From an uncultured Bacteroidota bacterium (GTDB lineage Bacteria; Bacteroidota; Bacteroidia; Chitinophagales; Chitinophagaceae), in assembly GCA_903831575.1 (NCBI GenBank), contig CAIKYB010000032.1, positions 1-64,000 on the forward strand: a DNA stretch of 64,000 nt. Direction: 5' to 3'. How positions within the stretch are numbered: position 1 is the stretch's first letter; each line of letters opens with the position of its first letter. This document shows, one piece after another, positions 35,679-57,997 of the stretch. A program made the position numbers and the translations under genes. A model generated the notes under the pieces. That model did no database searches, was not told the DNA's origin, and was given only the letters and a program-made list of their open reading frames with translations.

Positions 35679-37991
35679 ATGAAAATTAAAATGAAAAATC
35701 TTTACACCCTGCGCAAATGCGTACTAACTTCTTTATTAATCTTTTTTGCATTAACTTCTTTTTCAAGAAGCTTTTATGTGAGTTCGAGCTACACAGGATC
35801 TACTTCAAATGGAAATTTTTCTACGCCTTGGAAATCATTGGCTAATGTTCAATCCAACATGAGTGCTTTCAATCCAGGTGATACTATCTCTTTCAAATGC
35901 GGAGATTATTTCTCTGGTACTTTAAATTTAAGTAAATCTGGACTGGTTAATAATGCCATTACATTTAATAGTTATGGGTTGGGTGATAAGCCCAAATTTA
36001 TTGGTACAGGATCTACAATTTCTTATCTTTTTTATTTGTACAATAAAAATTACATCGTTTTTGATGGACTGGAAATAACAGACACTTCTATTAGTTCAAT
36101 CGATAGAACTCAGATTTCTAAAGTGCAAAGGGCTTTTGGTTTTGATGGCACGTCAAATAACAATACTATAAAAAATTGCAAGATTTCATTAGTTGGAGTA
36201 GGAGCTTACTGGGTAGGCCCATATAACAATATGGATCATTGTGATATTGGTAATTTGAGAATGGTTGTGAATAATGTTGGTGGCGATAATGATTATGGAG
36301 CAAATCCAATTGTAATTTCAAGTGCTTACAATTCCATTACCTATAATAATTTTCATGATTGTTGGGCTAACAGTTACGATTATGTATATGATGGAGGAGC
36401 GATTGAATTTTATGGAAGTGGGTCTTCTAATAATTTTGTGGGATATAATTCTTTCAATGATTGTTTGGGTGTATGTGAAAATGGTTCTGGTAGCGGTGGG
36501 CTAATTGAAAATAATGTATTTGCATATAATAAGTTCACTAATAATGGTAGTTTGTTTTATATTAATAATGGTGGAACATTTAGTGTTACAGTTTCTAATA
36601 TGCAGTTCTATAATAACGTTATTGTTCAAAATATTTCTCCGAGAGTTTCTGAAAGTGGTATGGCAAGTATGCGTTTAAGTACTACGACTCAAGGGGTTGT
36701 AATTTTTAAGAATAATGTTTTTCATTTGTCTAATGGGACACCCGTGGCCAGATCTAATTTCTTTAATGCCGGACAATTAATTCATGAAAACAATATTTAT
36801 AAGCTCTCTAATAATAGCACACTCAACTTTACAATTAATCCAAGTGAATTGTTGACTAGTCAAACAGTTTGGACAAATACAGTTTCATCAGATCCTTCTC
36901 TATGGGATTTTACACCATCAGCCTCAAGTCAGCTTATAAATTTTGGTCAAAATTTGGGGTATCAACATGATATTTTAAATAATTCAATAGTAGCATTGCC
37001 TGATGCAGGTGTCATTGAAAAATCAATTATTGTTGTTTCGCCATTAGTTGTTACACTAAACGCCGGAAAGATTAATTGTAATGGAGGAACAACTAATGTT
37101 ATTGTTGCTGCTACTGGTGGAGTTTTGCCATATGTTGGTGTTGGAACTTTTGTTGCGACTGCTGGTACACACACTTATACTGTTACTGATGCCATGGGTG
37201 CCAGTCAAACTACAACAATTAATGTATCTGAGCCATCTATGCTTTCTCAGACATTATATTATCCACATTCAGTAAATATATCTGGTCAAACAGTAACTGT
37301 AACGGACAGTGCATCTGGTGGGTCTGGAAATTATTCATATAGTATTGATGGGCACTTGTTTCAAACTACATCTGTTTTTGATTTAGTTCAAATAGGCAGC
37401 CATTTTATTAAATTGATGGATGGTAATGGCTGTACAAAAACTGACTCTTTTAATATTATATTGCTTTCAGTAGATACGCCACTTACTATTTCTATTGCAG
37501 CAAAATATGACGTTTCATGCAAAGGAGCCAATAATGGATATATTGAAGTCTTTGCTAATGGAGGGAAGAGGCCTTATTTGTATTCTTTAAATAATACAGG
37601 GTTCATCACATCTAATAAATTTTCTAATCTTAGGCCTGGGAATTATTCTATTGTTGTAAAAGACTCTCTTAATGCAACTTCATCAGTTTCTGTAATAATA
37701 TTAGATGGTACTAAAAGGTGTCATTTTTCAATTCCAAAAATAAAAAATAATACATTCAGTGTTACTGCATATCCTAATCCTACTACACAATCATTTGCTT
37801 TGTCATTTATTGCCAACCCGAATGTTGAAGTCGTAATAGAGGCCTTTAATATCCTTGGAAAAAAAGTATACCAATCTCGCGGATCAGTAAATAAATTTTA
37901 TCAATTAGGACAAGATTTTATTCCTGGTATTTATTTAATAAGAGTTATTCAAGGGGAGGATGTGCAGACTATAAAAGTAGTTAAGCAATAA
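35679..37991 (+). CDS. Secreted parallel beta-helix protein with SprB repeats and T9SS tail
   Basis: About 770 residues from the ATG at 35679 (MKIKMKNLYTLRK; a second ATG is at 35691). The frame extends upstream but the signal peptide, ending near LTSFSRS, fixes the start. Residues about 30-430 are an Asn/Gly-rich right-handed beta-helix beginning FYVSSSYTGSTSNGNFSTPW and containing WANSYDYVYDGGAIEFYGSG. Two or three SprB-type repeats follow (DVSCKGANNGYIEVFANGGK, RPYLYSLNN). A type A T9SS sorting domain ends the protein (AYPNPTTQSFALSF, FIPGIYLIRVIQG). The beta-helix suggests polysaccharide binding or cleavage. It has a shorter paralogue downstream and a terminator after it. Confidence 0.88.
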   Translation: MKIKMKNLYTLRKCVLTSLLIFFALTSFSRSFYVSSSYTGSTSNGNFSTPWKSLANVQSNMSAFNPGDTISFKCGDYFSGTLNLSKSGLVNNAITFNSYGLGDKPKFIGTGSTISYLFYLYNKNYIVFDGLEITDTSISSIDRTQISKVQRAFGFDGTSNNNTIKNCKISLVGVGAYWVGPYNNMDHCDIGNLRMVVNNVGGDNDYGANPIVISSAYNSITYNNFHDCWANSYDYVYDGGAIEFYGSGSSNNFVGYNSFNDCLGVCENGSGSGGLIENNVFAYNKFTNNGSLFYINNGGTFSVTVSNMQFYNNVIVQNISPRVSESGMASMRLSTTTQGVVIFKNNVFHLSNGTPVARSNFFNAGQLIHENNIYKLSNNSTLNFTINPSELLTSQTVWTNTVSSDPSLWDFTPSASSQLINFGQNLGYQHDILNNSIVALPDAGVIEKSIIVVSPLVVTLNAGKINCNGGTTNVIVAATGGVLPYVGVGTFVATAGTHTYTVTDAMGASQTTTINVSEPSMLSQTLYYPHSVNISGQTVTVTDSASGGSGNYSYSIDGHLFQTTSVFDLVQIGSHFIKLMDGNGCTKTDSFNIILLSVDTPLTISIAAKYDVSCKGANNGYIEVFANGGKRPYLYSLNNTGFITSNKFSNLRPGNYSIVVKDSLNATSSVSVIILDGTKRCHFSIPKIKNNTFSVTAYPNPTTQSFALSFIANPNVEVVIEAFNILGKKVYQSRGSVNKFYQLGQDFIPGIYLIRVIQGEDVQTIKVVKQ

Positions 37992-38055
37992 TTGTATTTA
38001 TGATTTTTATCATTAAAATTTGTATTACAGGTTGATATTATTTCATAGATTATAA

Positions 38056-38092
38056 AATAATTTCACTCTTATTTCGGGGTGAAATTATTTTT
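38056..38092 (+). terminator. Rho-independent terminator after the T9SS beta-helix gene
   Basis: aataatttcactc (38056-38068) pairs with gggtgaaattatt (38077-38089), 13 bp with one G-U pair and an eight-base loop, followed by TTTTT to 38092. It lies 65 bases after the stop codon and 24 bases before the next ATG. Confidence 0.9.
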
Positions 38093-38115
38093 ATTAAATT
38101 ATTGTATACTTTATC

Positions 38116-39267
38116 ATGAAAGTCAAATTTTTGGTTTCTTTTTTGATATTCTTTTTCTCAAAAGATCAGGAAGTTTTAGCAACGAGTATTTCATGGAATA
38201 GTAATCATTATTATGTAAGTTCAAGCTATAAAGGAAAAATATCAAATGGCACCATTCCTTTCCCATGGAAGTCTTTAACAGAAGTGCAAAAGAATATGAT
38301 TTTTTTTTTACCAGGGGATTATATTTCATTTAAAAGGGGAGATACCTTCCCCGGTATTCTTAATATTGCTTGTAGTGGAACTGCATCTCAGCCAATTATT
38401 TTTAAATCCTATGGTATAGGGGTAAGTCCGGTATTTAATGGTGTCGGGGGTGTAATTAAACATCTGTTTTATGTTTATAGGAGATCTTATATTAAGATTC
38501 AAGATTTTAGAATTATAGACATAAAATTAATGTCTGATAAGGGCCGAGAAAATATTTCAAATATACAGCGTGCCATAACATTAGAGGGATCTTTTCATTG
38601 TGAGATTAGGAATTGCAATATTTCATTAGTTGGCACTGGGATTTTTCTTTCAAATGGAGGTGATCATATCATTGAAAGAAATACCATTTCTAATCTTCGC
38701 ATGATTATAAATTCGAATGATGGGAATCTTCCAGGGAAGAATGACGATTATGGTGCAAATTGTATCACTTTATGCAGTTCAAATAATAAAATAAAAAATA
38801 ATCATTTTATCGGGGCATGGGCGAAATCTTATGATTACGTATTTGATGGGGGAGCTATTGAGTTATACGATTTAGGCGAAGGTGTAAATAAAAATATCAT
38901 CACTGCAAACTATATTTTTGATTGCAATGGAGTAATGGAAGTTCAAGGGAAATGCGACGATAATTATTTTGATAATAATATATGTAAGAATAATGGTGCA
39001 ATTGTTTATTGCCATAATTCAATTAAAGGTTGGCGTTTTCAAAATAATATGTTTGAAGAAAGTCAATTTCCACGGGTATCCGAAAATTATTTATTTAGTG
39101 CCTCAAGGAATACACTTTCTGAATTATTTTTAAATAACAATACTTTCAATATTTCTATTAAAGTTGTACTTGTTGATACTGTGTCTTTTAATTTATTTCA
39201 ACATCATCGGAATTCTTATAAATTAGTAATGAATAGTTCAGCAGGTTATGATATTCGAAAAGAATAG
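38116..39267 (+). CDS. Secreted parallel beta-helix protein, short paralogue
   Basis: A 383-residue protein with an N-terminal signal (MKVKFLVSFLIFFFSKDQEVLA). Throughout it aligns by eye with the beta-helix part of the preceding gene: YYVSSSYKGKISNGTIPFPW, FKRGDTFPGILNIACSGTAS, CNISLVGTGIFL, NDDYGANCITL and WAKSYDYVFDGGAIELYDLG. It lacks the SprB repeats and the T9SS tail, so it probably stays periplasmic or leaves by another route. It converges with the EPS operon, whose last stop is only seven bases away. It looks like an ancestral duplication followed by loss or gain of the tail. Confidence 0.85.
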   Translation: MKVKFLVSFLIFFFSKDQEVLATSISWNSNHYYVSSSYKGKISNGTIPFPWKSLTEVQKNMIFFLPGDYISFKRGDTFPGILNIACSGTASQPIIFKSYGIGVSPVFNGVGGVIKHLFYVYRRSYIKIQDFRIIDIKLMSDKGRENISNIQRAITLEGSFHCEIRNCNISLVGTGIFLSNGGDHIIERNTISNLRMIINSNDGNLPGKNDDYGANCITLCSSNNKIKNNHFIGAWAKSYDYVFDGGAIELYDLGEGVNKNIITANYIFDCNGVMEVQGKCDDNYFDNNICKNNGAIVYCHNSIKGWRFQNNMFEESQFPRVSENYLFSASRNTLSELFLNNNTFNISIKVVLVDTVSFNLFQHHRNSYKLVMNSSAGYDIRKE

Positions 39268-39274
39268 CTGTTAT

Positions 39275-40663
39275 TTAATATGCTTTTTTATCTCCTTTGA
39301 ATACGCTGTAGATTGTTATAAAAATAATTTTTAAGTCAAGCCATACATTCCAGTTTTCTAAATACCATATGTCATTATGTATTCTCATTTTTATTTGTAA
39401 GGGGTTCTTTATTTCCCCCCTAAATCCATTTATTTGAGCCCATCCAGTGATACCTGGTTTTAAAAAATGCCTTACCATGTAATCATCCACTATTTTTGAA
39501 TAATCATTTGTGTGCTTTACCATATGAGGTCTTGGTCCAACGATACTCATTTGGCCTATAAATACATTCAGAAATTGCGGGAATTCATCTAAGCTTGTTT
39601 TTCTTATAAATTTGCCCACTTTTGTAATTCTATTATCATTTTGACTTGCTTGCTTAAAGTCAGCATCTTTATTTATTTTCATGCTTCTGAATTTTAAACA
39701 ATCAAAAGTTAAATTATTTTTACCTGTTCTTTTTTGTGAAAAGAATAATGGCCCCTTAGATTCCATTTTTATAATTATTGCAAGCAATGGAATTAGCCAT
39801 GATAGAATAAATATAATCACCAAGCCACTGATAAAAATATCAAATATTCTTTTTTCTATTTTGTGACCTATATCTTCAAGAGGCTCATGCCTATTAGATA
39901 ATATTGGCAGGTCTCTTATATAATCTACTAAAACGGCGTTATTGAAAAAGTTAGATAAATTCGGGACTACTCTAAAATGAATGCAATTATTTTCAGCTTG
40001 TTGCATTAAGGAGTAGATGGACTTATTTTGTTCTGGAGAAATTGTAGAGTAGATTTCTTTGACATTAAACTTCAAAGCAACATTGATTAAGTTTTTTATT
40101 TCAGATAAAATCGGGTAGTGAGTGATTTCATTTACATTTTTATAGTTTTCTACAAATCCAATTAAGTTGGAATTAATTGACTCTTCTTCAAAATAGGAAG
40201 CCAATTTAATAGCAGTTTCATTATACCCTAGAATGATTATTTTATTGACTAAATAATCTTTATGTTTAAAATAGTTTCTTATTCCTAAGTATAGAAATCT
40301 ATTTAATATTAATCCAATAGAGTAGGAGAAGACGCATATTGTTATAAATATCTTATTTGTATGACCCTCATTTGAAATAAATAGATAAAGTACTCCTAAT
40401 AAAATCCATAACAAGAATGCTTGAACTGTTCTTTTGGTGAAAGTTTCGAAATGAGTTATTGATTTCTTGAAATAAACACCACAAATTATTATTAATATTA
40501 ACCAGATGATGTTGTTTATAAAAAGAAAAGATAATGATACTTCATTTGCAATTAGATGTAATTCATTTATTAATAATTTACTTATGAAAAAGCATACATT
40601 TATTGTTATAATATCTATAAGAAATAACGATAATTGTAAGTAATTTTTAAATTCTTTATTCAT
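39275..40663 (-). CDS. WcaJ-type polyprenyl-phosphate sugar phosphotransferase
   Basis: Starts EPS assembly by moving sugar-1-phosphate onto undecaprenyl phosphate. The 462-residue protein has four N-terminal transmembrane helices, a Rossmann-like CoA-binding domain (KIIILGYNETAIKLASYFEE), a fifth hydrophobic hairpin (DIFISGLVIIFILSWLIPLL) and the bacterial sugar-transferase catalytic domain: GPLFFSQKRTGKN, FDCLKFRSM, KTSLDEFPQFLNVF and SIVGPRPH. It is the last gene of the EPS operon and overlaps wecB by eight bases. Which sugar it uses (glucose, galactose or an amino sugar) is not readable from the sequence. Confidence 0.95.
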   Translation of the reverse strand: MNKEFKNYLQLSLFLIDIITINVCFFISKLLINELHLIANEVSLSFLFINNIIWLILIIICGVYFKKSITHFETFTKRTVQAFLLWILLGVLYLFISNEGHTNKIFITICVFSYSIGLILNRFLYLGIRNYFKHKDYLVNKIIILGYNETAIKLASYFEEESINSNLIGFVENYKNVNEITHYPILSEIKNLINVALKFNVKEIYSTISPEQNKSIYSLMQQAENNCIHFRVVPNLSNFFNNAVLVDYIRDLPILSNRHEPLEDIGHKIEKRIFDIFISGLVIIFILSWLIPLLAIIIKMESKGPLFFSQKRTGKNNLTFDCLKFRSMKINKDADFKQASQNDNRITKVGKFIRKTSLDEFPQFLNVFIGQMSIVGPRPHMVKHTNDYSKIVDDYMVRHFLKPGITGWAQINGFRGEIKNPLQIKMRIHNDIWYLENWNVWLDLKIIFITIYSVFKGDKKAY

Positions 40664-41786
40664 GCTGTAGAACTTTATTTAATTGACTTCTTTTTGTTTT
40701 GTATTCATTTAGCAATATTGATATAATTCTATCTGAAGTTTTGCCATCCCATAATGCAGGAATAGATCCTTTTTTCCATTTCCCCTCTATTATTTTCGTT
40801 ATATATTTCTTAAGGAGTTTGATATTATCACCTATTAATTCATTAGTTCCCATTGTTATGGTTTCAGGTCTTTCTGTACTGTTTCGCATTGTTAGGCAAG
40901 GAATGTTTAATACAGTTGCTTCTTCTGTAATGCCTCCTGAGTCAGTAATAATTGCTTTTGTATTTTTTATTAAATACAAAAACTCTAAATATGGCTGAGC
41001 AGTTATGGTAATTAAATTTTCATATTTCTTTTCAATTAAACTTAAAATTGATTTTGTTCTTGGATGTACAGGAAATATTACAATGGTATTGTTCGTAGCA
41101 TCCATAATTGCATCGAGGATCGATTTTAATTTTTCTACGTCATCAACATTTGAAGGTCGATGTAGTGTTAACAAAAAAAAGCTTTTTGGTTTAATTTGGT
41201 TTAATTCAATAAATAATGGTTTTTTTATGTTATTGAGATTAATTAGCAGTGTATCAATCATGGTATTTCCTACAAAATGAATTTTATTTATGGGGGTTTG
41301 ATTTTTCTTCAATAACTCACTTGCCGAGGTTGTCGTAGTGAAATAATAATCGCAAATCGCGTCGGTTACTATTCTGTTTATTTCTTCAGGCATTTCAATG
41401 TCGCCAGAACGAATTCCTGCTTCTACATGAGCGACTTTGATACATAGTTTTTTTGCTGTAATCGTGCATGCCATAGTAGAAGTGACATCTCCAACTACTA
41501 TAACAACATCTGGCTTGAAATTTATTAGTTCTTTTTCAAATTTTACCATAATCATAGCCGTTTGTTCTGCCTGAGTACCGCCACCACATTCCAAATTGAT
41601 ATCTGGATTTGGTATGCCAAGTTGTTCGAAAAAACTAATACTCATTATTTTATCATAATGTTGGCCTGTATGTACTAAACGAAATGAAAGATTTTCCCCA
41701 ATTTCTTTATAATACTCGATAGCTTTAATTAAGGGTGCAATTTTCATGAAATTCGGTCTTGCTCCCGCTACAATTGTAATTTTCAT
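40656..41786 (-). CDS. wecB: UDP-N-acetylglucosamine 2-epimerase (non-hydrolysing)
   Basis: Interconverts UDP-GlcNAc and UDP-ManNAc for the polysaccharide. The 376-residue protein starts KITIVAGARPNFMKIAPL, continues LVHTGQHYD, VIVVGDVTST, HVEAGIRSGD and has late KAIITDSGGITEEA and LTMRNSTERPE, all characteristic of WecB. The N-terminal signature makes the start certain. Therefore the 62-base overlap with the upstream gene is real at the sequence level. The neighbouring Gfo/Idh protein may act on the product. Confidence 0.97.
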   Translation of the reverse strand: MKITIVAGARPNFMKIAPLIKAIEYYKEIGENLSFRLVHTGQHYDKIMSISFFEQLGIPNPDINLECGGGTQAEQTAMIMVKFEKELINFKPDVVIVVGDVTSTMACTITAKKLCIKVAHVEAGIRSGDIEMPEEINRIVTDAICDYYFTTTTSASELLKKNQTPINKIHFVGNTMIDTLLINLNNIKKPLFIELNQIKPKSFFLLTLHRPSNVDDVEKLKSILDAIMDATNNTIVIFPVHPRTKSILSLIEKKYENLITITAQPYLEFLYLIKNTKAIITDSGGITEEATVLNIPCLTMRNSTERPETITMGTNELIGDNIKLLKKYITKIIEGKWKKGSIPALWDGKTSDRIISILLNEYKTKRSQLNKVLQHE

Positions 41787-42663
41787 AGACTTTTGTTTTA
41801 TTATTTAGATGATCGAAATTTTTTATCAAAGAAACAGTTTGACTGATATTTTGTCTGGATGATGCTCCAAATAATATAGATTCAATATTGGGTAATTCGC
41901 AGATGTATTTCAGTGCTTCTTGAGGTGGAATTGCCCCTCCACCCATCACTTGCATTGCCATTGCTCTTACTGTATTCGACATCAAAGTTTGATGATATAA
42001 TTCTATTCCTCCTGACATGCGAAATCCTGCTTTATTTATTGAAGAGCAGATAATTGGTTTTTTTATTCCTACTTGATTTAAGGTAAAAGCGAGCTTTGGT
42101 AAATTCATTGTTATAAATCCTGGTTCTGCGTTGTATTTTTTTATTATATAATCATGATATGCTTTAAAAATATCTTTCATTCCTAATCCTAATAAAAGAT
42201 CTGTAACTATATTTTGTAAAAAGATGACCGGTGTATTTATTTTAGTAAACATTTTCATCTCAGCATCAATCATTAATTCCATGATTGATATATAATCTTT
42301 AGAAACTACCGCAATTCCTCCTTTTATCATTGATCCAATGATATTTCCTGGCAAGTAGTTTTTAATTGTTCCCATTATTCCTAATTCCGTCACAGCATTA
42401 GCATATTTATGAGCATAAGGCATGCAAGGATAAATAGAGAAATTGCTGTACTTATCAGGTTCTTGTCTTATTAGATGGCAGATATTACTCATACGGTCAT
42501 GTGTCGTACACATAAAAGTTGAAATCCCATTTTCAATAGCAATATCGATAGTATTTAAAATGGTTTTGTCTTCTTTGAATTTTATTGTTAACGATCTTGA
42601 TTTTTCTTCTGAAATATGATTTACTGAAAAAAATTGGTTATCCCCGAATATTAATCTTTTCAT
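41725..42663 (-). CDS. TIM-barrel-like protein of EPS cluster, function unknown
   Basis: A 312-residue protein starting MKRLIFGDNQFFSVNHISEE. Features such as TIDIAIENGISTFMCTTHDR, PVIFLQNIVTDLLLGLG, FITMNLPKLAF, PIICSSINKAGFRMSGG and a late IESILFGASSRQNI are reminiscent of an aldo-keto-reductase-like TIM barrel, but the NADPH-binding signature is not evident. I cannot give it a reaction. Its last 20 codons lie inside wecB in another frame, ending at a stop that occurs there by chance. Its start overlaps the Gfo/Idh gene by 26 bases. Confidence 0.7.
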   Translation of the reverse strand: MKRLIFGDNQFFSVNHISEEKSRSLTIKFKEDKTILNTIDIAIENGISTFMCTTHDRMSNICHLIRQEPDKYSNFSIYPCMPYAHKYANAVTELGIMGTIKNYLPGNIIGSMIKGGIAVVSKDYISIMELMIDAEMKMFTKINTPVIFLQNIVTDLLLGLGMKDIFKAYHDYIIKKYNAEPGFITMNLPKLAFTLNQVGIKKPIICSSINKAGFRMSGGIELYHQTLMSNTVRAMAMQVMGGGAIPPQEALKYICELPNIESILFGASSRQNISQTVSLIKNFDHLNNKTKVYENYNCSGSKTEFHENCTLN

Positions 42664-43669
42664 AGTGTTTGTTTTTTATTTTATCGATTACCTGATCTGT
42701 GAAATAAGCGGTTTCAAATGTATTTATGTCATTTTTTGTAGTCCCAATTATAGTATTAATAAAGTGGTCTATTTGGTTAGAATATTCTTCACCTCTTAAA
42801 TAAAAGTTTGAATTTTCTGTAAGTGTTGTAATGTTTTTAATGTTCCAACCTTTTGTATAATTCGGGGGATAATTATTTGTTTTAAAATATACTTTTATTT
42901 CAGTGGCATCCGCTATTATTTTGCCATTTGTACCAATTATGGTAATGGAGGTATACATTTTTCTGAATGTTTCATCACTCCAATTAACGGAGAGGACGCC
43001 TGAAATTTTATTTTTTGTTTCTATTAATGCATATACTGCGTCATCAACTTTTATAGAATGAATTTTTTTTAAAATACTGCCATGAATAACTTCAATTGGG
43101 TCAATTATATTATTGATAAGATCTATTACATGAGAGGCATAATCCATAAGACATCCCCCGCCTTCATTTGGATCGGATCTCCAATTATTCTTTTGATTTT
43201 TAATAACGACTGGACCGTAGGCTTCTCCAGAAAAATGTGTGATTTTACCTAAGTAGCCTTTTTTTATTAAATCTTTTACTTCTCTAAACGTTCCCACAAA
43301 ATGATTATGATAACCTACTTGATTAATTGTTTTCATTTTATTAGCTAGTGCTAAAATTTCTTGACCTTCCTTGGTATTTAAACAAAATGGTTTTTCAACA
43401 AAGACATGAATTTTTCTTTTCAATAATTCTGTAACAATTGGAGCATGAAATTTAGTTGGCACAGAAACGATAACTCCTTCTGGCTTTTCATTTTCAATCA
43501 TTGTTATGTAGTTTTTGTAAGTCTTAAAAGAGGTGTATTTTTCTAAAACATCATTTATTATATCAGAAGTATCAGCGACTCCCACAACATTCACTTGAGG
43601 ATGTGACCCAAGTATGGCTAAATGGGATAGTCCCATTTTTCCTGCACCAATTAGTCCAATTTTTATCAT
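42638..43669 (-). CDS. Gfo/Idh/MocA-family sugar oxidoreductase
   Basis: A 343-residue NAD(P)-dependent dehydrogenase. IGLIGAGKMGLSHLAIL binds the dinucleotide. VFVEKPFCLNTKEG contains the EKP motif with the catalytic Lys, and DYASHVIDLINNII supplies the Asp/His pair. In EPS clusters such enzymes oxidise the 3-OH or 6-position of UDP-sugars (WlbA/WbpB-like), fitting a downstream product of WecB. It overlaps the DUF354 gene by four bases and the following gene by 26. Confidence 0.92.
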   Translation of the reverse strand: MIKIGLIGAGKMGLSHLAILGSHPQVNVVGVADTSDIINDVLEKYTSFKTYKNYITMIENEKPEGVIVSVPTKFHAPIVTELLKRKIHVFVEKPFCLNTKEGQEILALANKMKTINQVGYHNHFVGTFREVKDLIKKGYLGKITHFSGEAYGPVVIKNQKNNWRSDPNEGGGCLMDYASHVIDLINNIIDPIEVIHGSILKKIHSIKVDDAVYALIETKNKISGVLSVNWSDETFRKMYTSITIIGTNGKIIADATEIKVYFKTNNYPPNYTKGWNIKNITTLTENSNFYLRGEEYSNQIDHFINTIIGTTKNDINTFETAYFTDQVIDKIKNKHYEKINIRG

Positions 43670-44691
43670 TTCAAATTAGTTTTAAGAATTTCATTTTTTA
43701 AAATATGGTATGCTAATTCACCTTTTTTCATTAATCCTATGGAGGGTTTTTTTGAATTTATATTGAGAATATAGTTTTCTATTTTTGTAGCTGTTATATC
43801 GGGATCATGAATCATTATTCCGTTCCTAAGAAGGAAAGAATCTACATCAAGTAATTTGTCTTGATATACGGATATTGTTGGAATGCCAAGAATTGCCATT
43901 TCTCTTGTCATAGACCCACCAGCTCCAATGAATAGTGTACAATCGCTTGCTATTGTTTCGAAATCTAATGGCTTTCTTGGAACACTTGTATAGAGAAACT
44001 CATTTTTTTGATAATGGATTGTTTGATTTTCATCTCTTGTTAGAATTGTAATTTTATATTTTTCTTGAAGTTCAAGAATCATTTCATCTAAGAAATTAGT
44101 TTTGGCATTATAGTATTGCGCTGTTTGAGGTTCAGGTCTAATATAAATATGAATTTCTTTTGAATGATTAATCCTAGATCTCTGAATTTTTTCACCTTTT
44201 CTGTATAGGTAAATTCCTTCTTTAACTCCAGGGTATTGTATAATTTTATTTGTAGATACTCCAAATGATTTGATTTTTTCAATATCTAAATTTTCCGGTA
44301 TCAGGATTTTTGTTGCAAGCAAGAAACATGGTTTGTTACCTAAGGCATGTTCATTGTCATTTGTGTAAATAGAAGGAATTCCTAATAGTTTTGCAACTAA
44401 AGGCGAGTGAAATGAGCTTTGTGAAACGGCTAAGTCTGGGCGATGCTTTTTTAGAAATCTATATAGTTGTAAAACTCTTACAGGATATCCAATAAGTTTA
44501 CTTTTTAATTTTTTCCCATAATGTTTACCTACAATAGTATGAGTCATTCCTTTCTGATTTAACAATGCTATTGTATTTGCTAAGGGTCTTGATGTAATGA
44601 TAACTTCATGTCCTTCAGATTCTAAATCTTTAATAAGGTCATAAAACATATTAACATGTGGAGAATTGGAGATATCAAACCATATTTTCAT
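43666..44691 (-). CDS. DUF354 glycosyltransferase-like protein
   Basis: A 341-residue protein starting MKIWFDISNSPHVNMFYDLI, the hallmark of DUF354. The fold resembles GT-B/UDP-GlcNAc 2-epimerase enzymes: EVIITSRPLANTIALL, DLAVSQSSFHSPLVAKLLG, IPSIYTNDNEHAL, LFIGAGGSMTREMAILGIP. The family frequently occurs next to wecB-type epimerases, as here, and is suspected to be a glycosyltransferase. The 17-base overlap with the toroid gene upstream and the 4-base overlap downstream suggest translational coupling. Confidence 0.85.
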   Translation of the reverse strand: MKIWFDISNSPHVNMFYDLIKDLESEGHEVIITSRPLANTIALLNQKGMTHTIVGKHYGKKLKSKLIGYPVRVLQLYRFLKKHRPDLAVSQSSFHSPLVAKLLGIPSIYTNDNEHALGNKPCFLLATKILIPENLDIEKIKSFGVSTNKIIQYPGVKEGIYLYRKGEKIQRSRINHSKEIHIYIRPEPQTAQYYNAKTNFLDEMILELQEKYKITILTRDENQTIHYQKNEFLYTSVPRKPLDFETIASDCTLFIGAGGSMTREMAILGIPTISVYQDKLLDVDSFLLRNGIMIHDPDITATKIENYILNINSKKPSIGLMKKGELAYHILKNEILKTNLK

Positions 44692-45880
44692 GATACTTTT
44701 TTTTGTTTGAAATATTATACATGTGGTTTAAATAAATAGTTAAAGAATAAAACATCCAAGACTGCGTCCATCTTATATAGGATATTTTGTTCTTGTAAAA
44801 CTTGTTTTTTTGGTAATAGAAATATCCTTTTTTTGATTGCATATTTTTAATAGACCACAGAAATACGGTTTCAATTAAATCTTGATATTGTGCTATTTTT
44901 TTTACTTTAGATAAAGTAATTGTTAATTGAGCTACTGCATGCATGTCAATTGGGTAGGTCTTATTGTAATAATATTTTACAATTCCTTTTTTTGTGAAGA
45001 AATTATTGATATAGAAATCGAAACCTCTATTTAATTGTTCTTCGTACTGGTTATCTTTTGTATAAGTAATATAATCAGCTAAACATTCTATCATGTATCC
45101 TGTATGAAAGTTATCTATCCATTTATGATGTTTTTGTTTACCATAATACCAAGAACCATTTTCGTTTTGATGATTACAGCAGAATTCAATTAATTTTTTT
45201 GCTTTTTCTTTTAAATGAATTTCAGAAGTGAGGGAATATATCCTTGCTAATAGTTTTGCGCCTAACATAGAGGCATTAAAAACAATACTTTTATCTATAG
45301 GTGAATAAGACAGCGAAAATGATGTAGTAGTTTCTTCCAGTTTATTTAAATTATTTAAAATAAAATCACACGTACTTCTTGAAATTTTTAGTAATCGCTC
45401 TTCTTTCGTAATATCATATGCATCTAAAATTGAATTTGCTATAAAAGAAGATGTTACTATTGTAGGAGTTCCTTTTGGTAAAAAAAAAGCCTTCGATTGC
45501 CAGTCGAAATTATAACCCCAACAATATCCTGCATATCCATCTGTTTTGAGTAGCATTAATTCTTCTGTTAGGTGATTTATTTTTTCTAAATATTCTATTG
45601 AATGATCTTGTTCGTATAATTTACAATAAGATGACAAGAAGATAGCTAACCCTTTGGCGTTGTATTCTTTCTTAATACCCACAACTTTCCTGAAATTAAC
45701 TGGAGATTTTTTAAAAAATTGAATCCATATTAATTTGATGATTTTATTTTCTTTGATTAATTTATTTCTATAAATCATTTCGCTAGTAAGTCCATCATAA
45801 GGGTCGTAACCTTTATATTTTTCTTTTTCGCAATAATTTTTTAATTTATTGAACGCAGAATTTATAGTGTCGTTTAACAT
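44675..45880 (-). CDS. Alpha/alpha-toroid (six-hairpin glycosidase-like) protein
   Basis: A 401-residue cytoplasmic-looking protein without a signal peptide. Repeated helical hairpins of about 50-60 residues are visible (LAIFLSSYCKLYEQ, TSSFIANSILDAYDITKEER, SMLGAKLLARIYSLTSE, HTGYMIECLADYITYTKDNQ, HAVAQLTITLSKVKK). Conserved Trp/Asp pairs between them (GYCWGYNFDWQ, NGSWYYG, HKWIDNFHTG, YIRWTQSWM) are typical of the (alpha/alpha)6 barrel of glycosidases and lyases. I cannot assign a catalytic acid. Similar genes in EPS loci are usually left unnamed; a role in trimming or modifying lipid-linked glycan is inference. Confidence 0.65.
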   Translation of the reverse strand: MLNDTINSAFNKLKNYCEKEKYKGYDPYDGLTSEMIYRNKLIKENKIIKLIWIQFFKKSPVNFRKVVGIKKEYNAKGLAIFLSSYCKLYEQDHSIEYLEKINHLTEELMLLKTDGYAGYCWGYNFDWQSKAFFLPKGTPTIVTSSFIANSILDAYDITKEERLLKISRSTCDFILNNLNKLEETTTSFSLSYSPIDKSIVFNASMLGAKLLARIYSLTSEIHLKEKAKKLIEFCCNHQNENGSWYYGKQKHHKWIDNFHTGYMIECLADYITYTKDNQYEEQLNRGFDFYINNFFTKKGIVKYYYNKTYPIDMHAVAQLTITLSKVKKIAQYQDLIETVFLWSIKNMQSKKGYFYYQKNKFYKNKISYIRWTQSWMFYSLTIYLNHMYNISNKKKYHENMV

Positions 45881-45907
45881 TTTACTAATGTTTGATTTAT
45901 AGATTTA

Positions 45908-46975
45908 TCAAGTTGACTGTATGATTTTTTTATATAATTCTCTGTAATCATTATAAATGTAATTGGTGCTATTTTTATGTTGATAATTTCTTTGATTCAC
46001 ATTTTTTTCATTTTCTATTAGGGTAATTAGTTTTTCCTCAAAGTCATCGGTATCTCTATTTTTAAAGAGGATTGTATTGTCTGGTCTATTTGTAACATCT
46101 GATGCTAAAACCTTTTTATTTAAGAATAAAGCTTCTCTAATTGTTAAGGAATCTCCATCTGTATTAGTTGGTCTTACTACTATATTTGATTTTTGAATTA
46201 ATTTATAAAATGGGAGATCAATATTGATTAAAAGGAAATTTTTATCTATTTCTAAGTCAGTTATTAATTTCTGGTATTGATGAAAAAGCTCAGCTCCATG
46301 TTCTAAAGAACATACTACAAAAACAAAACAAATTTTTATATTTTTTCTTAACAGTCTTTCTGTAACAGTAATGCACATATCAAGTCCGTATAAGTCTTCA
46401 TTATTGAATTTGATTAATTTCGAAGCGTTTGCACAAATTATTATTTCATTGTTTATTTTTGCGATGCTTATTCTGTCATCAATAATTGAAGGGAGTTTAA
46501 CTAATTCGTCTTTTATAGGTGGGATAAATGCATGCTGTATAATGTATTTATTTTTAGCAATTTTATTTTTGATTTCTATATCCTTATTTACAAAAATTAA
46601 TTTATTTGAAAGGCTGTAAAAATAGTTGTCTATTCTATTAGAGATTTCATGTTTTCTTCTATGACTGAATCCATGAAACGTAAGTATCGTTTTTTTTAAA
46701 AAAAGTTTACTTATAATTAAATGTGACTTCTTCAAAATAATATTCCCGCTATGAATAAAAACAACATCTGACTTTAAAATCTTTTTTATGTATTCTATTA
46801 TATTGCAGCTCCGTAAATTAAAACTACCTTTCTTTTTTTCTTTTGATTCGTCTATAATATCAATAAAAAAATCATTTTTTAAAAGATGTCCTAGTCTTTC
46901 AATATGAATACTTATGCCACCTGCTGGTGGAGATATGGGGCCAATTATTAACAGATTTAATTTCTTGTTTTCCAT
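45908..46975 (-). CDS. Glycosyltransferase (GT-B, family 4-like)
   Basis: A 355-residue GT-B enzyme: LLIIGPISPPAGGISIHIERLG at the N-terminus (acceptor-side loop PPAGGI), a middle segment TILTFHGFSHRR, and a C-terminal donor domain with VVRPTNTDGDSLTIREALFLNKKVLASDV, where the EALFL motif includes the nucleotide-sugar-binding Glu. It adds a sugar in repeat-unit assembly on the cytoplasmic face; donor and acceptor are unknown. It starts one base after the stop of the PaaK-like gene. Confidence 0.88.
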   Translation of the reverse strand: MENKKLNLLIIGPISPPAGGISIHIERLGHLLKNDFFIDIIDESKEKKKGSFNLRSCNIIEYIKKILKSDVVFIHSGNIILKKSHLIISKLFLKKTILTFHGFSHRRKHEISNRIDNYFYSLSNKLIFVNKDIEIKNKIAKNKYIIQHAFIPPIKDELVKLPSIIDDRISIAKINNEIIICANASKLIKFNNEDLYGLDMCITVTERLLRKNIKICFVFVVCSLEHGAELFHQYQKLITDLEIDKNFLLINIDLPFYKLIQKSNIVVRPTNTDGDSLTIREALFLNKKVLASDVTNRPDNTILFKNRDTDDFEEKLITLIENEKNVNQRNYQHKNSTNYIYNDYRELYKKIIQST

Positions 46976-46976
46976 C

Positions 46977-48236
46977 TTATTTCTTTATGATCAGTTTGTA
47001 TTTCTTTTGATTATTGTAATCCAATTCTTCGTATTTGCATTTTCTGACAATAAATTCTTTCTCATTCCCAATTAATCTTTTGATGTTTTCCTTTAATTGC
47101 GCTTCATCATTATTATTATATTGTTCTGTAACGACAACTTTAATTTCTATTGATTTGTCAATTTTATTTTGATGAACCTGTGCCATCTCTAAATGGCTAA
47201 TTCCTTTAAATGCGTGATCAATACAACTAATTATACTTCCATCTTTGAGTTCTATATATTCGCTTGCACGGCCTTCTATGCTTTTTATTTTAGGGCAAAC
47301 TATATTTTCTATTAATTCATTTGATTCAACTTTAATAATATCATCTACTTCATATCTGATTAGTGGGAAACTTTTATTTATTAAACTGGTAGTGATTATT
47401 TTGTTTTTTTTATATTCATTAATTGAATATAATGGGAGTGTGTAATATTCTTTATCTAAGTTTTGTGCTATTGCTATTGTTCTTTCTACATTACCATACC
47501 AATCATAAATTGTTGTATTCAAATATGATTCTATTTTAAGTCTTTGGAATTCATAAAGTGTTTCTGAAGAGGTGAATGATACGGGGATTTCGATATGGTA
47601 ATTAATTTTTTCTAATTCGGTTACAAATTTGAATAAATAACTTGGAAATGCTTCTATTGATACAGGGTTAAATTCTTTTATTAATGAGAATAAAAATCTA
47701 ATATTACTTTCATTAATATTGGGCCCGGATATAAATAATTTGTTTTGTTTCTTATCGTATTTATAGATTTCATTTTTTCCTAGAAATCCTTTTATTGATA
47801 GAATAGATCGACCTTCATTAAATCCATTTGATGTTCTGTAGAATTGTAAATATGCTTCTTCGTTTAATATACTTCTTGGTGTTCTAAATACAGTTAATGG
47901 CGATCCAGATGTGCCACTAGTAAATGCTTTTATTTTAAGATATTTATTTCCAACAAATATTTCATTTATGTTGTTCTTAATTATATTCTTATTTATTACA
48001 GGGAGTTTATTTATATCGGTAATGTCTTTTATGTCATTTATAAATATTCCATTTTTTCTATAAAAATCTTTATAAAACTTAGAGTTATTAAATGCGTTTT
48101 TAAATATTTCAAGAAACTTACTATTGTATTTTTTCAGGATTTTATCATTATCTAATTTGTTGTATGCTGCAATTTTATTGATTTTTTTATTTACAAAAAG
48201 GTTGTGCTTTGCGTAATATTTTAAATGTGTATTCAA
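46977..48236 (-). CDS. PaaK/CapK-like adenylate-forming enzyme
   Basis: A 419-residue ANL-superfamily protein related to phenylacetate-CoA ligase and coenzyme F390 synthetase. The ATP loop is AFTSGTSGSPLTVFR near residue 110, the A5-like motif is IYDWYGNVERTIAIAQ, and the A7-like Asp sits in LIRYEVDDIIKV. In capsule loci this group (CapK) is thought to activate an acyl or aryl acid for transfer to the glycan. The FemAB-like gene upstream could use the activated group. The substrate is not known. Confidence 0.85.
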   Translation of the reverse strand: MNTHLKYYAKHNLFVNKKINKIAAYNKLDNDKILKKYNSKFLEIFKNAFNNSKFYKDFYRKNGIFINDIKDITDINKLPVINKNIIKNNINEIFVGNKYLKIKAFTSGTSGSPLTVFRTPRSILNEEAYLQFYRTSNGFNEGRSILSIKGFLGKNEIYKYDKKQNKLFISGPNINESNIRFLFSLIKEFNPVSIEAFPSYLFKFVTELEKINYHIEIPVSFTSSETLYEFQRLKIESYLNTTIYDWYGNVERTIAIAQNLDKEYYTLPLYSINEYKKNKIITTSLINKSFPLIRYEVDDIIKVESNELIENIVCPKIKSIEGRASEYIELKDGSIISCIDHAFKGISHLEMAQVHQNKIDKSIEIKVVVTEQYNNNDEAQLKENIKRLIGNEKEFIVRKCKYEELDYNNQKKYKLIIKK

Positions 48237-48397
48237 TTTTTTTTGTAATTTTTAACAATTACTAAATTAAATATCTATTTATGTATACTACATGTTTATA
48301 GTCATTCTATCATGTGATATTTTTTATTACTGCAATTAAATTAATTCCGTATGGTTATTAAATCTCAATATTGAAAGTTAAATAGCATAATATTAAA
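48237..48397. other. Largest gap inside the EPS operon
   Basis: The 161-base spacer between the FemAB-like and PaaK-like genes is by far the longest in the operon, where most gaps are below 50 bases or negative. It is A/T-rich and has no evident ORF, terminator or matching TAnnTTTG promoter. It could be an internal promoter or a cassette junction. Confidence 0.4.
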
Positions 48398-49138
48398 TCA
48401 GTAACGTCTATCTAAGAACTGAGAAAATTTTAGCAGAAAAAAATATAGGATTGTAAAATAGCTCTGGCAACTTTTAATTTCTCCTCCAAACAGTAATTTA
48501 AAGCTATTGATACCTATTAAGCTTTTGTTATTTGTGTTTAGAGCATACCCTCCAAAATCGTACTTGATGAAGCCATTGCTTTTGAAATAGAAGATATCAT
48601 GTGATGTTAATAGTTTATTTGCTATACTAATTGTTTGATTATTTTGGTTATTTTCAAGTCTCTTAGATACTGACTGGAAAAGTCGAGCTATTCCAAGGTC
48701 TTTATCTATTATATAACTATGAGCAACAATTATTTCATTATTATAAGTTGCAAAACTCGTTATAAAACTTTCGCCAATCTCTTCAATTGTTTTTCTATTT
48801 ATTGAATAAATTTCTTTCTTCTTAGAAAAACTTTCGCTCATCTCTATAAATTCTTTCAAGTCATTTTTGAAATCACATTCAATATTCATTTTTTTTCCTT
48901 TTCTAATATAATTTCTTGTATTTGTTGTGAATGAATTAAATAAAGTATCTACATTTTTCTTCAGATTTATTTCAATTGTGTGCGTTTCTTTTTTTATTAA
49001 TAAAGATCTTCTTTTGGAAATACTTTGTTGTACATATTGGTATGATCTTAATTTGAATACGTTATGAAATTCTTTATTATATCTAAACCAAGTCTCACTT
49101 ACTTTAAAAAAATAAAATTTTTTTTTAAATAAAACCAT
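48398..49138 (-). CDS. FemAB/GNAT-like acyltransferase
   Basis: A 246-residue protein with a GNAT-like fold of the FemAB/CelD type. TNTRNYIRKGKKMNIECD matches the substrate-binding helix (TRNxIRKG) seen in Fem-type aminoacyl or acyl transferases. AHSYIIDKDLGIARLFQSVS and KLLTSHDIFYFKSNGFIKYDFGG supply the core sheet and the acyl-donor strand. The last 25 residues are hydrophobic/aromatic and may bind membrane. It probably decorates the EPS or a lipid-linked intermediate. It is next to the PaaK-like activator, which hints at a two-step acylation. Confidence 0.75.
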   Translation of the reverse strand: MVLFKKKFYFFKVSETWFRYNKEFHNVFKLRSYQYVQQSISKRRSLLIKKETHTIEINLKKNVDTLFNSFTTNTRNYIRKGKKMNIECDFKNDLKEFIEMSESFSKKKEIYSINRKTIEEIGESFITSFATYNNEIIVAHSYIIDKDLGIARLFQSVSKRLENNQNNQTISIANKLLTSHDIFYFKSNGFIKYDFGGYALNTNNKSLIGINSFKLLFGGEIKSCQSYFTILYFFLLKFSQFLDRRY

Positions 49139-49151
49139 ATGCTTTTATTTT

Positions 49152-50333
49152 TTATTTATTTATACATTCTGAGTAAAAATTCATTGTTTTAATAGCAACA
49201 ATATCGCAATGGTATTTTTGGTACGCATTTTCTTTTGTATTTTTTATCATGGATTTTATTTCATTATCATTATCATGTAATTTTTTAAGTATATTATTTA
49301 ATTCTTCTTTCGATTTGTTATCAAATAAGTAACCAGTTTTATAATTATCTATCATTTCAGGTATTCCTCCAACCCTAGAAGCTACTATTACCTTCCCAGC
49401 TGCCATGCATTCAGCTATTGACATAGGTAATGATTCATGATTTGAAGCTACAATTAGTATATCTGATTTTTCTATAACAGTTAGTAATTCTTTTTCTTCA
49501 AGCCATCCATGAAATTTTACTAATTGTAATAAATTATTTTCATTAACGTATTCCAGGATTTTATTTTTATAATTCAAATCAATGAAATCGCCAACGATAT
49601 TAATACTGTAAAAAATATTATTTTCTTTAAGTTCTTTTATTGACTTTAAAATGTGGATTAAATTCTTATTATTATTTATTACGCCTATATAAAGTAATAT
49701 ATTATCTGTTTGATTCTTTATTTTCAGATCAAAGAAATTTGATTTAATTGCATTTGGAATAATTTTATTTTTTTCGATTTTATACTTACTATATTTATTC
49801 TTAGAGAAATTTGACAGGTGAATAATTTTTTTCGGCATTAACATTATTTGGATTAATCCATTGAAATACCAAATTAATTTATCCTTTTTTGATGTTTTAC
49901 TTTTTGCTTCATCAAATGCCATACCATGTATTGTTTGCAGATATTCAATCCCTTTTATACCAAAAAGTTTTGTCAGAAGGAAAGAATTGCCAGTTTCATA
50001 ATGAATGATATCTGGCTTTATTTCTCTTATATATTTATTTATTATTCTTGTGCAAGAAAATATGAAATTCATTGTATGAATACGAAATGGCCCTTCTGGG
50101 AAATAATGTATTTCAATATTAGTATCAAACTCTATAATTTTAATTTCTTTTACTTCTCTACTTGGTACGAGAACCTTAATTTTTATATTTTTAGATTTAA
50201 ATCCATGGAGTAGATTTATGGTTGCTGATTGAACTCCACCTTTAATATGATTTAATGCTAAGGGTAATTCAGGTGAAATTATTATTACTTTAATAATCCG
50301 TTCTGATTTTATTATATTTTCATTTTCTTTCAT
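49152..50333 (-). CDS. Glycosyltransferase family 4 protein
   Basis: A 393-residue GT-B glycosyltransferase: IIISPELPLALNHIKGGVQSAT at the N-terminus, YLQTIHGMAFDEA, a second domain starting NILLYIGVINNNKNL and the donor site KSDILIVASNHESLPMSIAECMAAGK with the HESLPMSIAE version of the EX7E motif. Retaining chemistry is expected for family 4. Donor sugar unknown. It follows another GT4-type gene at 14 bases and precedes the FemAB-like gene. Confidence 0.92.
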   Translation of the reverse strand: MKENENIIKSERIIKVIIISPELPLALNHIKGGVQSATINLLHGFKSKNIKIKVLVPSREVKEIKIIEFDTNIEIHYFPEGPFRIHTMNFIFSCTRIINKYIREIKPDIIHYETGNSFLLTKLFGIKGIEYLQTIHGMAFDEAKSKTSKKDKLIWYFNGLIQIMLMPKKIIHLSNFSKNKYSKYKIEKNKIIPNAIKSNFFDLKIKNQTDNILLYIGVINNNKNLIHILKSIKELKENNIFYSINIVGDFIDLNYKNKILEYVNENNLLQLVKFHGWLEEKELLTVIEKSDILIVASNHESLPMSIAECMAAGKVIVASRVGGIPEMIDNYKTGYLFDNKSKEELNNILKKLHDNDNEIKSMIKNTKENAYQKYHCDIVAIKTMNFYSECINK

Positions 50334-50347
50334 TTGGCATTTAATAT

Positions 50348-51502
50348 TTAAGCATATACTTCTAATAATGTCAATTCGTTTTTCTTATTTACTTCTTTTT
50401 TATTACTACTAATTATATTTTTTTCTAGTTCTAGATATTTATTATTTTCAAGAGCTTCTATTATCTTATCAGCAAATGAAAAACTATCTGGATTAGCAAT
50501 TAGCCCATTTGTATTGTTTATAATATATTCAGGGAATGATCCAACAGATGTTGCGATAGTTGTTTTGCCTAATGCATTTGATGTCATTAATACGCCACTT
50601 TGTGTTGCATCTCTATATGGACAAACAATAAATTTTGATTGTTGTATATAATCAATTAACTCAGATGTTTCCATATAATTAGTATGTATTTCAATGTTAT
50701 TTTTATATTCTAATATGATTTCATGGTTAATTACATTCTTGTAGTATTCTTTCCCTATAATTAAAAATAACTGGTCAGGGTATTTTTCTATTACTTTTGG
50801 AATAGCATCAAGTAAAATATCAATTCCTTTATAGTAGGATAGTCTTCCAAAAAATGTTATATACTTTCTTTTGTAATTTTTATTTTTTATGTGTTTTTTA
50901 TTTATAGTATAAGGCTGTAATGAAATTATTGAAATAGGTTTTTTATAATTGATGTATTTTGACAAGAATTGTTTTTTTGCATATGCTGAATAAAATAGTA
51001 TTGAGTTAGAAATTTTTAAAAATATCCAATTTGGAATATTTTCTTTCCAAGAATTTTCACCAGAGTGTGGTATTGGATCATGAATTGTTGAAACCACTTT
51101 TTTATGTATTATGTATGGTACTAATCCAATTGCTCTTGTTGAAAATGTATCAAAATGGAAAACATCTATTTTTAACTTTTTAGTATACATCATTAATTTA
51201 TATCCTAAAATAAATGTATTCAAGGTAAGGCTACGTTTTCTTTTGTAAACTATAAATTGAACACTGGCAACACCATTGAAATATTCTTTAATTAAGTTCC
51301 ATTTTATTTCTCCTAATACATTCTCTGGTTTTTCAATAAATTTTAAATGATTGATTTTATCAACATCTATAATTGTTGTATGTTTTGATTGATTAGATAT
51401 TTCTATAAATACATGTAGGATTGTTTTTTCCTTAATGCTTTGAATGGTTTCTAGAATTGCATCTAAAAAATTTGTTGACGTATAAAAAAATACAGATTTC
51501 AT
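50348..51502 (-). CDS. Glycosyltransferase (GT4-like)
   Basis: A 384-residue GT-B enzyme with VFFYTSTNFLDAIL at the start, a middle HKKVVSTIHDPIPHSGEN, the second Rossmann domain YITFFGRLSYYKGIDILLDAIP and donor-binding QSKFIVCPYRDATQSGVLMTSNALG. The usual EX7E motif is degenerate (the first Glu is replaced in DATQSG), a pattern found in some mannosyl- and galactosyltransferases. It lies three bases downstream of wzx, so it should be coexpressed with it. Confidence 0.87.
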   Translation of the reverse strand: MKSVFFYTSTNFLDAILETIQSIKEKTILHVFIEISNQSKHTTIIDVDKINHLKFIEKPENVLGEIKWNLIKEYFNGVASVQFIVYKRKRSLTLNTFILGYKLMMYTKKLKIDVFHFDTFSTRAIGLVPYIIHKKVVSTIHDPIPHSGENSWKENIPNWIFLKISNSILFYSAYAKKQFLSKYINYKKPISIISLQPYTINKKHIKNKNYKRKYITFFGRLSYYKGIDILLDAIPKVIEKYPDQLFLIIGKEYYKNVINHEIILEYKNNIEIHTNYMETSELIDYIQQSKFIVCPYRDATQSGVLMTSNALGKTTIATSVGSFPEYIINNTNGLIANPDSFSFADKIIEALENNKYLELEKNIISSNKKEVNKKNELTLLEVYA

Positions 51503-51505
51503 TTT

Positions 51506-52945: not shown

Positions 52946-52947
52946 TA

Positions 52948-55160: not shown

Positions 55161-55208
55161 TTTTATATTTCGATTTGAATTAATTCAGTCTTTTTATAAA
55201 TTATTACT

Positions 55209-55661: not shown

Positions 55662-55671
55662 TTTTTATATT

Positions 55672-57990: not shown

Positions 57991-57997
57991 GATTCAA

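Follow-up and report, generated by a model that had tools for sequence, protein, structure and literature searches.

What do two neighbouring beta-helix genes do where they run up against the end of a gene cluster for exopolysaccharide (EPS)? The question is raised by contig CAIKYB010000032.1 of an uncultured member of the Chitinophagaceae, of which a stretch of 64,000 nucleotides (the window) was analysed. Two genes on the forward strand, P0001 (35679..37991) and P0002 (38116..39267), converge on the last gene of an EPS operon, and the earlier note had suggested that their products are perhaps a lyase or an epimerase. The reading put forward here, which we favour tentatively and stop short of calling probable, is that P0001 and P0002 are secreted beta-helix enzymes cleaving a glycan, most likely the EPS of the convergent cluster. 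Its computed basis is the predicted fold, the paralogy of the two genes, conserved acids at the T3 loop and PB1 strands of the helix, and recurrent convergence on the same EPS terminus. Activity on the home EPS is suggested by the place of the genes beside that terminus, as with WceF (stewartan) and RbmB (Vibrio polysaccharide, VPS).

Two paralogues facing an exopolysaccharide operon

Open reading frame (ORF) and domain searches give P0001 a length of 770 aa; an alternative TTG start 57 bases upstream would make it 789 aa. The AlphaFold model places an N-terminal cap and a right-handed beta-helix at about residues 31-440 (35769..36998, +). Two stretches of P0001 match the SprB repeat, the better one at residues 611-640 (37509..37598, +; PF13573, 38.2 bits against a cut-off of 28), and a type A sorting domain of the type IX secretion system (T9SS) occupies residues 698-770 (37770..37988, +; TIGR04183, 39.8 bits against a cut-off of 23). 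Both matches are confined to P0001. P0002, a paralogue of 383 aa identified from its ORF and model, has a signal-peptide-like N terminus as judged by eye, and an NCBIfam search found no C-terminal T9SS sorting domain in it. The two proteins are 39% identical over 393 columns (BLASTP, E 5e-70), and a search of the 2.4 Mb source genome with P0002 at E 0.001 returned only P0001 and P0002. The stop of P0002 ends at 39267 and that of the convergent gene starts at 39275, leaving a gap of 7 bases. Thus the paralogy, the restriction of SprB repeats and T9SS tail to the first protein, and the seven-base distance from the last EPS gene were all borne out as the earlier note had described them.

The convergent gene (39275..40663, -) encodes a WcaJ-like polyprenyl-phosphate sugar transferase (PGT; PF02397, 220 bits), and the remainder of the operon (40656..58813, -) runs from a WecB-like gene to Wzc- and Wza-like genes in Pfam and NCBIfam searches. 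Judged by the Pfam families of its genes, 39275..58813 is a Wzx/Wzy-type EPS cluster. These families comprise Bac_transf, Epimerase_2, GFO_IDH, DUF354, glycosyltransferases, Polysacc_synt, Wzy_C, a deacetylase, NusG, the Wzz/AAA kinase type and Poly_export; three operon genes matched no Pfam family.

A recent duplication within the window was rejected as the origin of the pair, the core of P0001 being 74-75% identical to the homologues L040 and L041 and 39% to P0002. A phage origin was rejected as well: the PHROGs search matched only the repeat region of P0001, once and at 34 bits, and did not match P0002, and the likeness to phage and other viral beta-helix proteins is one of fold only.

Conserved acids predicted on the helix face

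The earlier note had singled out NDDYGAN or an equivalent, followed by WAxSYDYVxDGGAIExY, as the longest conserved stretch of the pair. DYGAN and the longer block are indeed present in both proteins. P0001 carries DYGAN (D205, Y206) at 36291..36305 (+) and WANSYDYVYDGGAIEFY (W229, D234, D238, E243) at 36363..36413 (+); P0002 carries DYGAN (D211, Y212) at 38746..38760 (+) and WAKSYDYVFDGGAIELY (W235, D240, D244, E249) at 38818..38868 (+). The block is the best 18-column window of the pair, with 14/18 identical. Its density is nevertheless not exceptional, since shuffling the identical columns 2000 times gave 14 or more in 623 cases, and motif density in the pair alone was discarded as evidence on this ground. 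The longest identical runs are YVSSSY and DGGAIE, of six residues each, and 160 of the 361 aligned residues are identical overall.

A family alignment was made from 76 ORFs found at E 1e-20 or better in the fetched genomic contexts, of which 73 distinct sequences covering the core were kept, and the two window proteins brought the total to 75. Residues are numbered after P0002; the P0001 equivalents of D211, E249 and E275 are D205, E243 and E267. E267 (36477..36479, +) and E275 (38938..38940, +) lie on the next PB1 strand after the block. D211 is Asp in 75/75 sequences. E249 is Glu in 69, Asp in 5 and Lys in 1, E275 is Glu in 73 and Lys in 2, and D135 is Asp in 74 and Glu in 1. D240 is kept in 61. 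The W235 column holds Trp in 68 and Tyr in 7, and that of Y212 has 47 Tyr, 14 Phe, 13 Ile and 1 Val. The other near-invariant columns are mostly Gly and ladder Asn (N265, N288 and N311, each 75/75). No invariant Lys, Arg or His was found in the 75 sequences, the nearest being H363 (68), which is far in sequence from the motif, and R320 (58). The pair comparison, then, does not single out the motif, while the family alignment does so for Asp and Glu and less for Tyr. Of the conserved Asp, Tyr and Glu of the earlier note the acids stood, the SYDYV tyrosines being less constrained. These results support the view that the conserved Asp and Glu behave as a functional site.

The AlphaFold model of P0002 has a mean pLDDT of 86.2 and a pTM of 0.88, and the domain model of P0001 has 76.8 and 0.82, with pLDDT below 50 at model residues 389-427 (P0001 417-455). 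DSSP of the P0002 model gives three strands per coil. D211 directly precedes the long strand (PB1) of one coil, and WAKSYDYVFDG forms the T3 loop before the next PB1. E249 is residue four of that six-residue strand and E275 is residue four of the following PB1. PB1 is the usual active-site face of beta-helix enzymes. E249 is flanked alternately by hydrophobic residues, mostly I/V before and M/F/I/L after, and because of this alternation in strand register its side chain should be directed out of the helix. The mapping proposed in the earlier note thus places the acids, in the model, at T3 and PB1 of nearby coils, with E249 and E275 at the same place on consecutive strands. The predicted strand register argues against the contrary case, in which the motif residues would be stacked in the helix core.

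Recurrence at the polysaccharide terminus

Sixty fetched genomic contexts and the window (61 in all) were mapped with the window proteins. A homologue and a PGT gene occur in the same stretch in 20/61, always convergent and with up to three genes between them; 11/61 were judged unlinked and 30/61 end at a contig edge, 14 of these with the DUF1599/MauE flank on the other side. Linkage, which the earlier note had named as a possible support, is frequent, at 20/31 contexts judged to have enough flank. A PGT gene within 10 kb is expected by chance in about 2.4%, and in a rough control 3/27 cap-only beta-helix matches lay within 10 kb of one. Complete PF02397 lists place no PGT within 10 kb of the 11 unlinked contexts, which are G018, G004, G009:C72 and eight in genus g282; in G004 only 1.2 kb separates the homologue from the contig start on the permease side, and the EPS PGT is about 150 kb away. 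Eighteen linked contexts belong to the window's genus, one to g273 (L123) and one to g226 (L126). The far-side genes of L123 differ from those of the window's genus. The L126 stretch continues into the cut end of another SprB-repeat gene, its start repeating the end of contig C3 (L125); that contig's 13 kb contain no flanking gene of the window's genus. By this overlap some contexts belong to one locus, and it is the EPS side that persists, L123 and L126 having it in the absence of the other flank typical of the genus. EPS linkage as a property of a single clade was rejected: on the tree this label would have to change 16 times, 32 of the 75 rows being undetermined.

The distribution was searched with profile alignment A3. 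The beta-helix family occurs in 32/93 genomes of the window's genus (E 1e-6). It was found in at least 12/294 genomes and at least 6/101 genera of the taxonomic-family sample (at most nine candidates per genome scored) and, at E 1e-10, in at least 1/395 genomes of the class sample, namely the window's own (at most six candidates); with so few candidates scored, members could have been missed in these two samples. Among the candidates scored, the protein family so far lies within the window's taxonomic family only. Three tandem copies stand at the same place in another genus member (contig DDTB01000010.1).

An EPS operon gene without a Pfam or NCBIfam family (41725..42663, -), 57-75% identical in 30 other genus genomes and matched in 24/294 genomes of the taxonomic family, was used as EPS marker. 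Among the 93 genus genomes 21 have both the beta-helix family and the marker, 11 the family only, 10 the marker only and 51 neither (p 4.6e-6, shared descent not corrected for). The association is weak in the taxonomic-family sample, where 12 and 24 of 294 genomes carry them and four carry both (p 0.011, likewise uncorrected).

By a simple C-terminal pattern 16/52 complete homologues are tail-less, two of them doubtfully (L050, L143), and P0002 is one more. Tailed and tail-less copies stand together in five stretches (the window, L043, L046, L113, L153), so the pairing recurs. A hydrophobic C-terminal stretch was seen by eye in the tail-less, EPS-adjacent homologues L043:2236-3750, L110, L114, L115 and L126 and is absent from P0002; it might anchor those homologues in the membrane.

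A further 27 contexts (L156-L182) were chosen by the marker; they represent part of the marker-positive genomes, several are short, and L181 comes from a family-positive genome. Among the selected ORFs scanned, at least 2/27 (L156, L174) have another cap-bearing beta-helix protein beside the PGT gene, and near that gene at least 2/27 (L172, L173) encode DUF4832 proteins that carry PKD arrays and T9SS tails. L183 and L184, selected for this feature, likewise have a beta-helix at the cluster. The T9SS tail of L174 (32.5) passes the Pfam cut-off, and those of L156 (21.0) and L183 (24.0) fall short of it. The DUF4832 proteins of L172:4253-8380, L173:1845-5786 and L173:6276-10730 (the last assigned by sequence likeness only) lie between the marker gene and the PGT gene in other genomes of the taxonomic family.

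Within the operon of the window, 44675..45880 (-) has a short PF09492 Pec_lyase match (27.7 bits, cut-off 22, 45 aa), and its product is perhaps an alpha/alpha-barrel glycan enzyme. A PaaK-like acyl-CoA ligase (46977..48236, -) and a weakly FemAB-like protein (48398..49138, -), with all matches under the NCBIfam cut-offs, hint at acyl or amino-acid decoration of the EPS.

Enzyme class and rival explanations

Against the PDB, Foldseek ranked PsAly (6kfn; E 9.7e-10, TM 0.59/0.70), GH136 enzymes (6kqs/7v6i/5gqc) and the VPS lyase RbmB highest for P0002, followed by XylC and rhamnogalacturonan, chondroitin, pectate and PL6 lyases; for P0001 GH136 was nearest, then PL6 and Pel9A. Clear sequence-profile matches to solved structures cover the cap and first coils only (GH136, E down to 9.8e-20; PsAly, 4.7e-8), and the core alone matched almost nothing among PDB sequence profiles (best E 0.018). 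The profile searches of PDB sequences contained neither an epimerase nor an RbmB chain. No Pfam or NCBIfam model searched defines the beta-helix family: PF13229 (Beta_helix) matched neither window protein at E up to 1 and 3/20 family members at E 0.01. The NCBIfam model LctobiosidLnbX matches 13/20 members (best E 2.1e-12), and its cut-off of 2500 bits is missed by P0002 (14.5) and L043 (32.7), both near the cap.

Seven beta-helix proteins of Paenibacillus, Cohnella and Neobacillus (L004-L006, L008-L011) were compared with the family. L008 is a clear GH136 lacto-N-biosidase relative (7v6m, E 1.9e-44), and all seven keep the GH136 catalytic Asp pair. Profile comparison of the family with these proteins gave a probability of 99.2% with the cap and 57% for the core, and aligned DGGAIE with their DGMSFD, i.e. 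the GH136 catalytic strand. In ErLnb136 the acid/base is D568 and the nucleophile D575, and GH136 activity needs a partner domain, GH136-I (PMC7335108). With a chain numbering offset of two, chosen as it fits W548, D568 and D575 together, D568 is the first Asp of the DGMSFD stretch and D575 the Asp two past its end. The window family shares with LnbX and ErLnb136 the N-terminal cap, the beta-helix fold and an acidic motif on the corresponding PB1 strand. It differs in the catalytic columns, and membership in GH136 was rejected because Asp stands at the D568 column in only 41/75 and no acid occurs at the D575 column (F38, Y26, I8, S1, V1, A1; F/Y/I in 72/75).

Since the invariant acids are not accompanied by an equally conserved basic residue and hydrolases are the closest relatives by profile, we lean, from sequence comparison, towards hydrolases over lyases or epimerases. 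The lyase or epimerase of the earlier note was thus not upheld in those words; lyases are among the nearest by fold, whereas by profile GH136 is nearest and no epimerase appears. In such a hydrolase D211, E249 and E275, with D135 two coils off and mostly D240, would form the lining of a sugar-binding groove at the PB1 face, and these carboxylates would act as acid/base and nucleophile or as water-activating groups, with Trp235 and the aromatic residue at 251 stacking sugars. P0001 would leave the cell by the T9SS, be kept at or released from the surface through its SprB repeats and type A tail, and trim or remodel EPS outside the cell. P0002 has a signal-peptide-like start but lacks the T9SS tail; it would act in the periplasm, where it might, for instance, clear or size nascent chains.

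Several observations weigh against glycan hydrolases acting on the home EPS. The best single fold match of P0002 is a lyase. Both models were built on shallow alignments of 5 sequences each, and side-chain directions come from DSSP and sequence register rather than coordinates; D211 (model residue 189) adjoins a stretch of pLDDT below 50 (180-187), and the WAKSYDYV loop has a mean pLDDT of 63 in P0002 and 50 in the equivalent stretch of P0001. D240 is missing in 14 homologues, and the E249 and E275 columns admit Lys. P0002 ends before the helix domain of P0001 does; in the tree it sits with two G502 copies, on a branch whose length (1.01) drew a warning from the program. The rate of 18/21 judged contexts linked in the window's genus reflects inherited synteny and is not made of independent cases, and some contexts are possibly two ends of one locus. 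The family is lacking in 10/31 marker-positive genus genomes and the marker in 11/32 family-positive ones. In g282 all eight contexts (8/8) lie away from EPS, so the refuting case of the earlier note, homologues mainly away from EPS loci, holds in that genus and not in the window's own.

The g282 contexts are also the mainstay of a reading in which the proteins are enzymes for outside glycans (food, host or competitor) and EPS adjacency is inherited gene order only. Tandem homologues at L132:8334-12179 (7.3 Mb genome) stand between McrBC-type genes and GH28, DUF4957 and SusD, a catabolic setting in the only g282 context annotated, and G004, G009:C72 and G018 were also judged unlinked. Nonetheless the EPS side is retained in L123 and L126, where the other flank of the genus is absent, the homologue converges on the PGT gene in every one of the 20 linked contexts, and a Pfam scan of 22 window proteins gave no SusD match; we consider this reading unlikely. 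We put no more trust in the proposal that the proteins are EPS lyases acting by beta-elimination like RbmB or PsAly, in which the acids would hold a uronate-neutralising cation and Tyr212 would serve as base or acid. PB1 acid clusters can bind calcium, as in PL1 and PL6. PsAly leads the P0002 fold matches, with RbmB, PL6 and PL9-type lyases next, and its profile match takes in the cap and the first coils; it uses Tyr184/Lys221 and a cation site (PMC6796002). By contrast, the window family has, by sequence alignment, no invariant Lys in its 75 sequences, nor an invariant Arg or His, and Tyr212 is replaced by Phe or Ile in 27/75. A UDP-sugar dehydrogenase family was not found in the cluster by Pfam, though the gene could sit elsewhere.

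Less likely still is a role without catalysis, in which the proteins would bind EPS in the matrix or in adhesion, as a lectin with a beta-helix carried on an SprB/T9SS stalk. The repeats and tail of P0001 would suit this role, WceF agglutinates its EPS in a lectin-like manner (PMC7949094), and Lys stands at the E249 column in one homologue and at E275 in two. However, three to four acids near-invariant across divergent sequences suggest catalysis or metal binding, the cap and core resemble active hydrolases, and the tail is lacking in 16/52 complete homologues (two doubtful). Polymer C5-epimerases like AlgE/AlgG have the same overall fold, and the AlgE6 A-module (5lw3) appears at Foldseek rank 43 for P0002 (E 9.8e-5). 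The AlgE catalytic block is YGxDPHE, which has no counterpart among the conserved family columns; this candidate was rejected for the absence of a profile match to an epimerase among PDB sequences and must be regarded as highly improbable.

Glycan-cleaving enzymes of the PelA, PgaB, AlgL and BcsZ type have other folds and belong to synthase-dependent pathways. They share with P0001 and P0002 that they are encoded with EPS synthesis (for PelA, PMC9894940), and P0001 and P0002 do lie beside an EPS cluster. WceF of Pantoea stewartii is a beta-helix glycoside hydrolase whose gene lies inside a Wzy-type EPS cluster and which cuts that EPS, stewartan (PMC7949094). Right-handed beta-helix fold and EPS-cluster gene are common to both. 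According to the same source WceF is exported by Tat and forms a tailspike-like trimer that has a head and a neck domain, whereas the window proteins have a cap-type helix and P0001 has SprB repeats and a T9SS tail in addition. RbmB of Vibrio cholerae, a cluster-encoded beta-helix enzyme of the biofilm matrix that cleaves its home polysaccharide VPS (PMC11637428), is a fold neighbour of P0001 and P0002; it differs in being a lyase and in its absence from the sequence-profile matches. EPS-cluster depolymerases are already known, the novelty here lying in the protein family, in its T9SS/SprB architecture and in the group of hosts. Titles and abstract openings of the open-licence PMC literature yielded nothing treating T9SS beta-helix proteins at EPS clusters.

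A broader idea, possible but doubtful, is that the EPS-cluster end in the Chitinophagaceae is a dedicated slot for T9SS-exported, exchangeable glycan-cleaving domains (the GH136-related hydrolase family, other beta-helices and DUF4832 proteins), often paired with a tail-less copy, by which periplasmic and surface enzymes would be matched to the EPS made. It would amount to an EPS remodelling module using the T9SS. In some Proteobacteria the EPS cluster encodes a depolymerase of its own, and this enzyme determines the length of the chains as well as the texture and dispersal of the biofilm (WceF, RbmB, PelA). If the beta-helix family has this role in the Chitinophagaceae, the principle would extend to bacteria that export such enzymes by the T9SS; the family would then count as a new family of glycoside hydrolases neighbouring GH136 and could serve as a means of cutting the slime of Bacteroidota.

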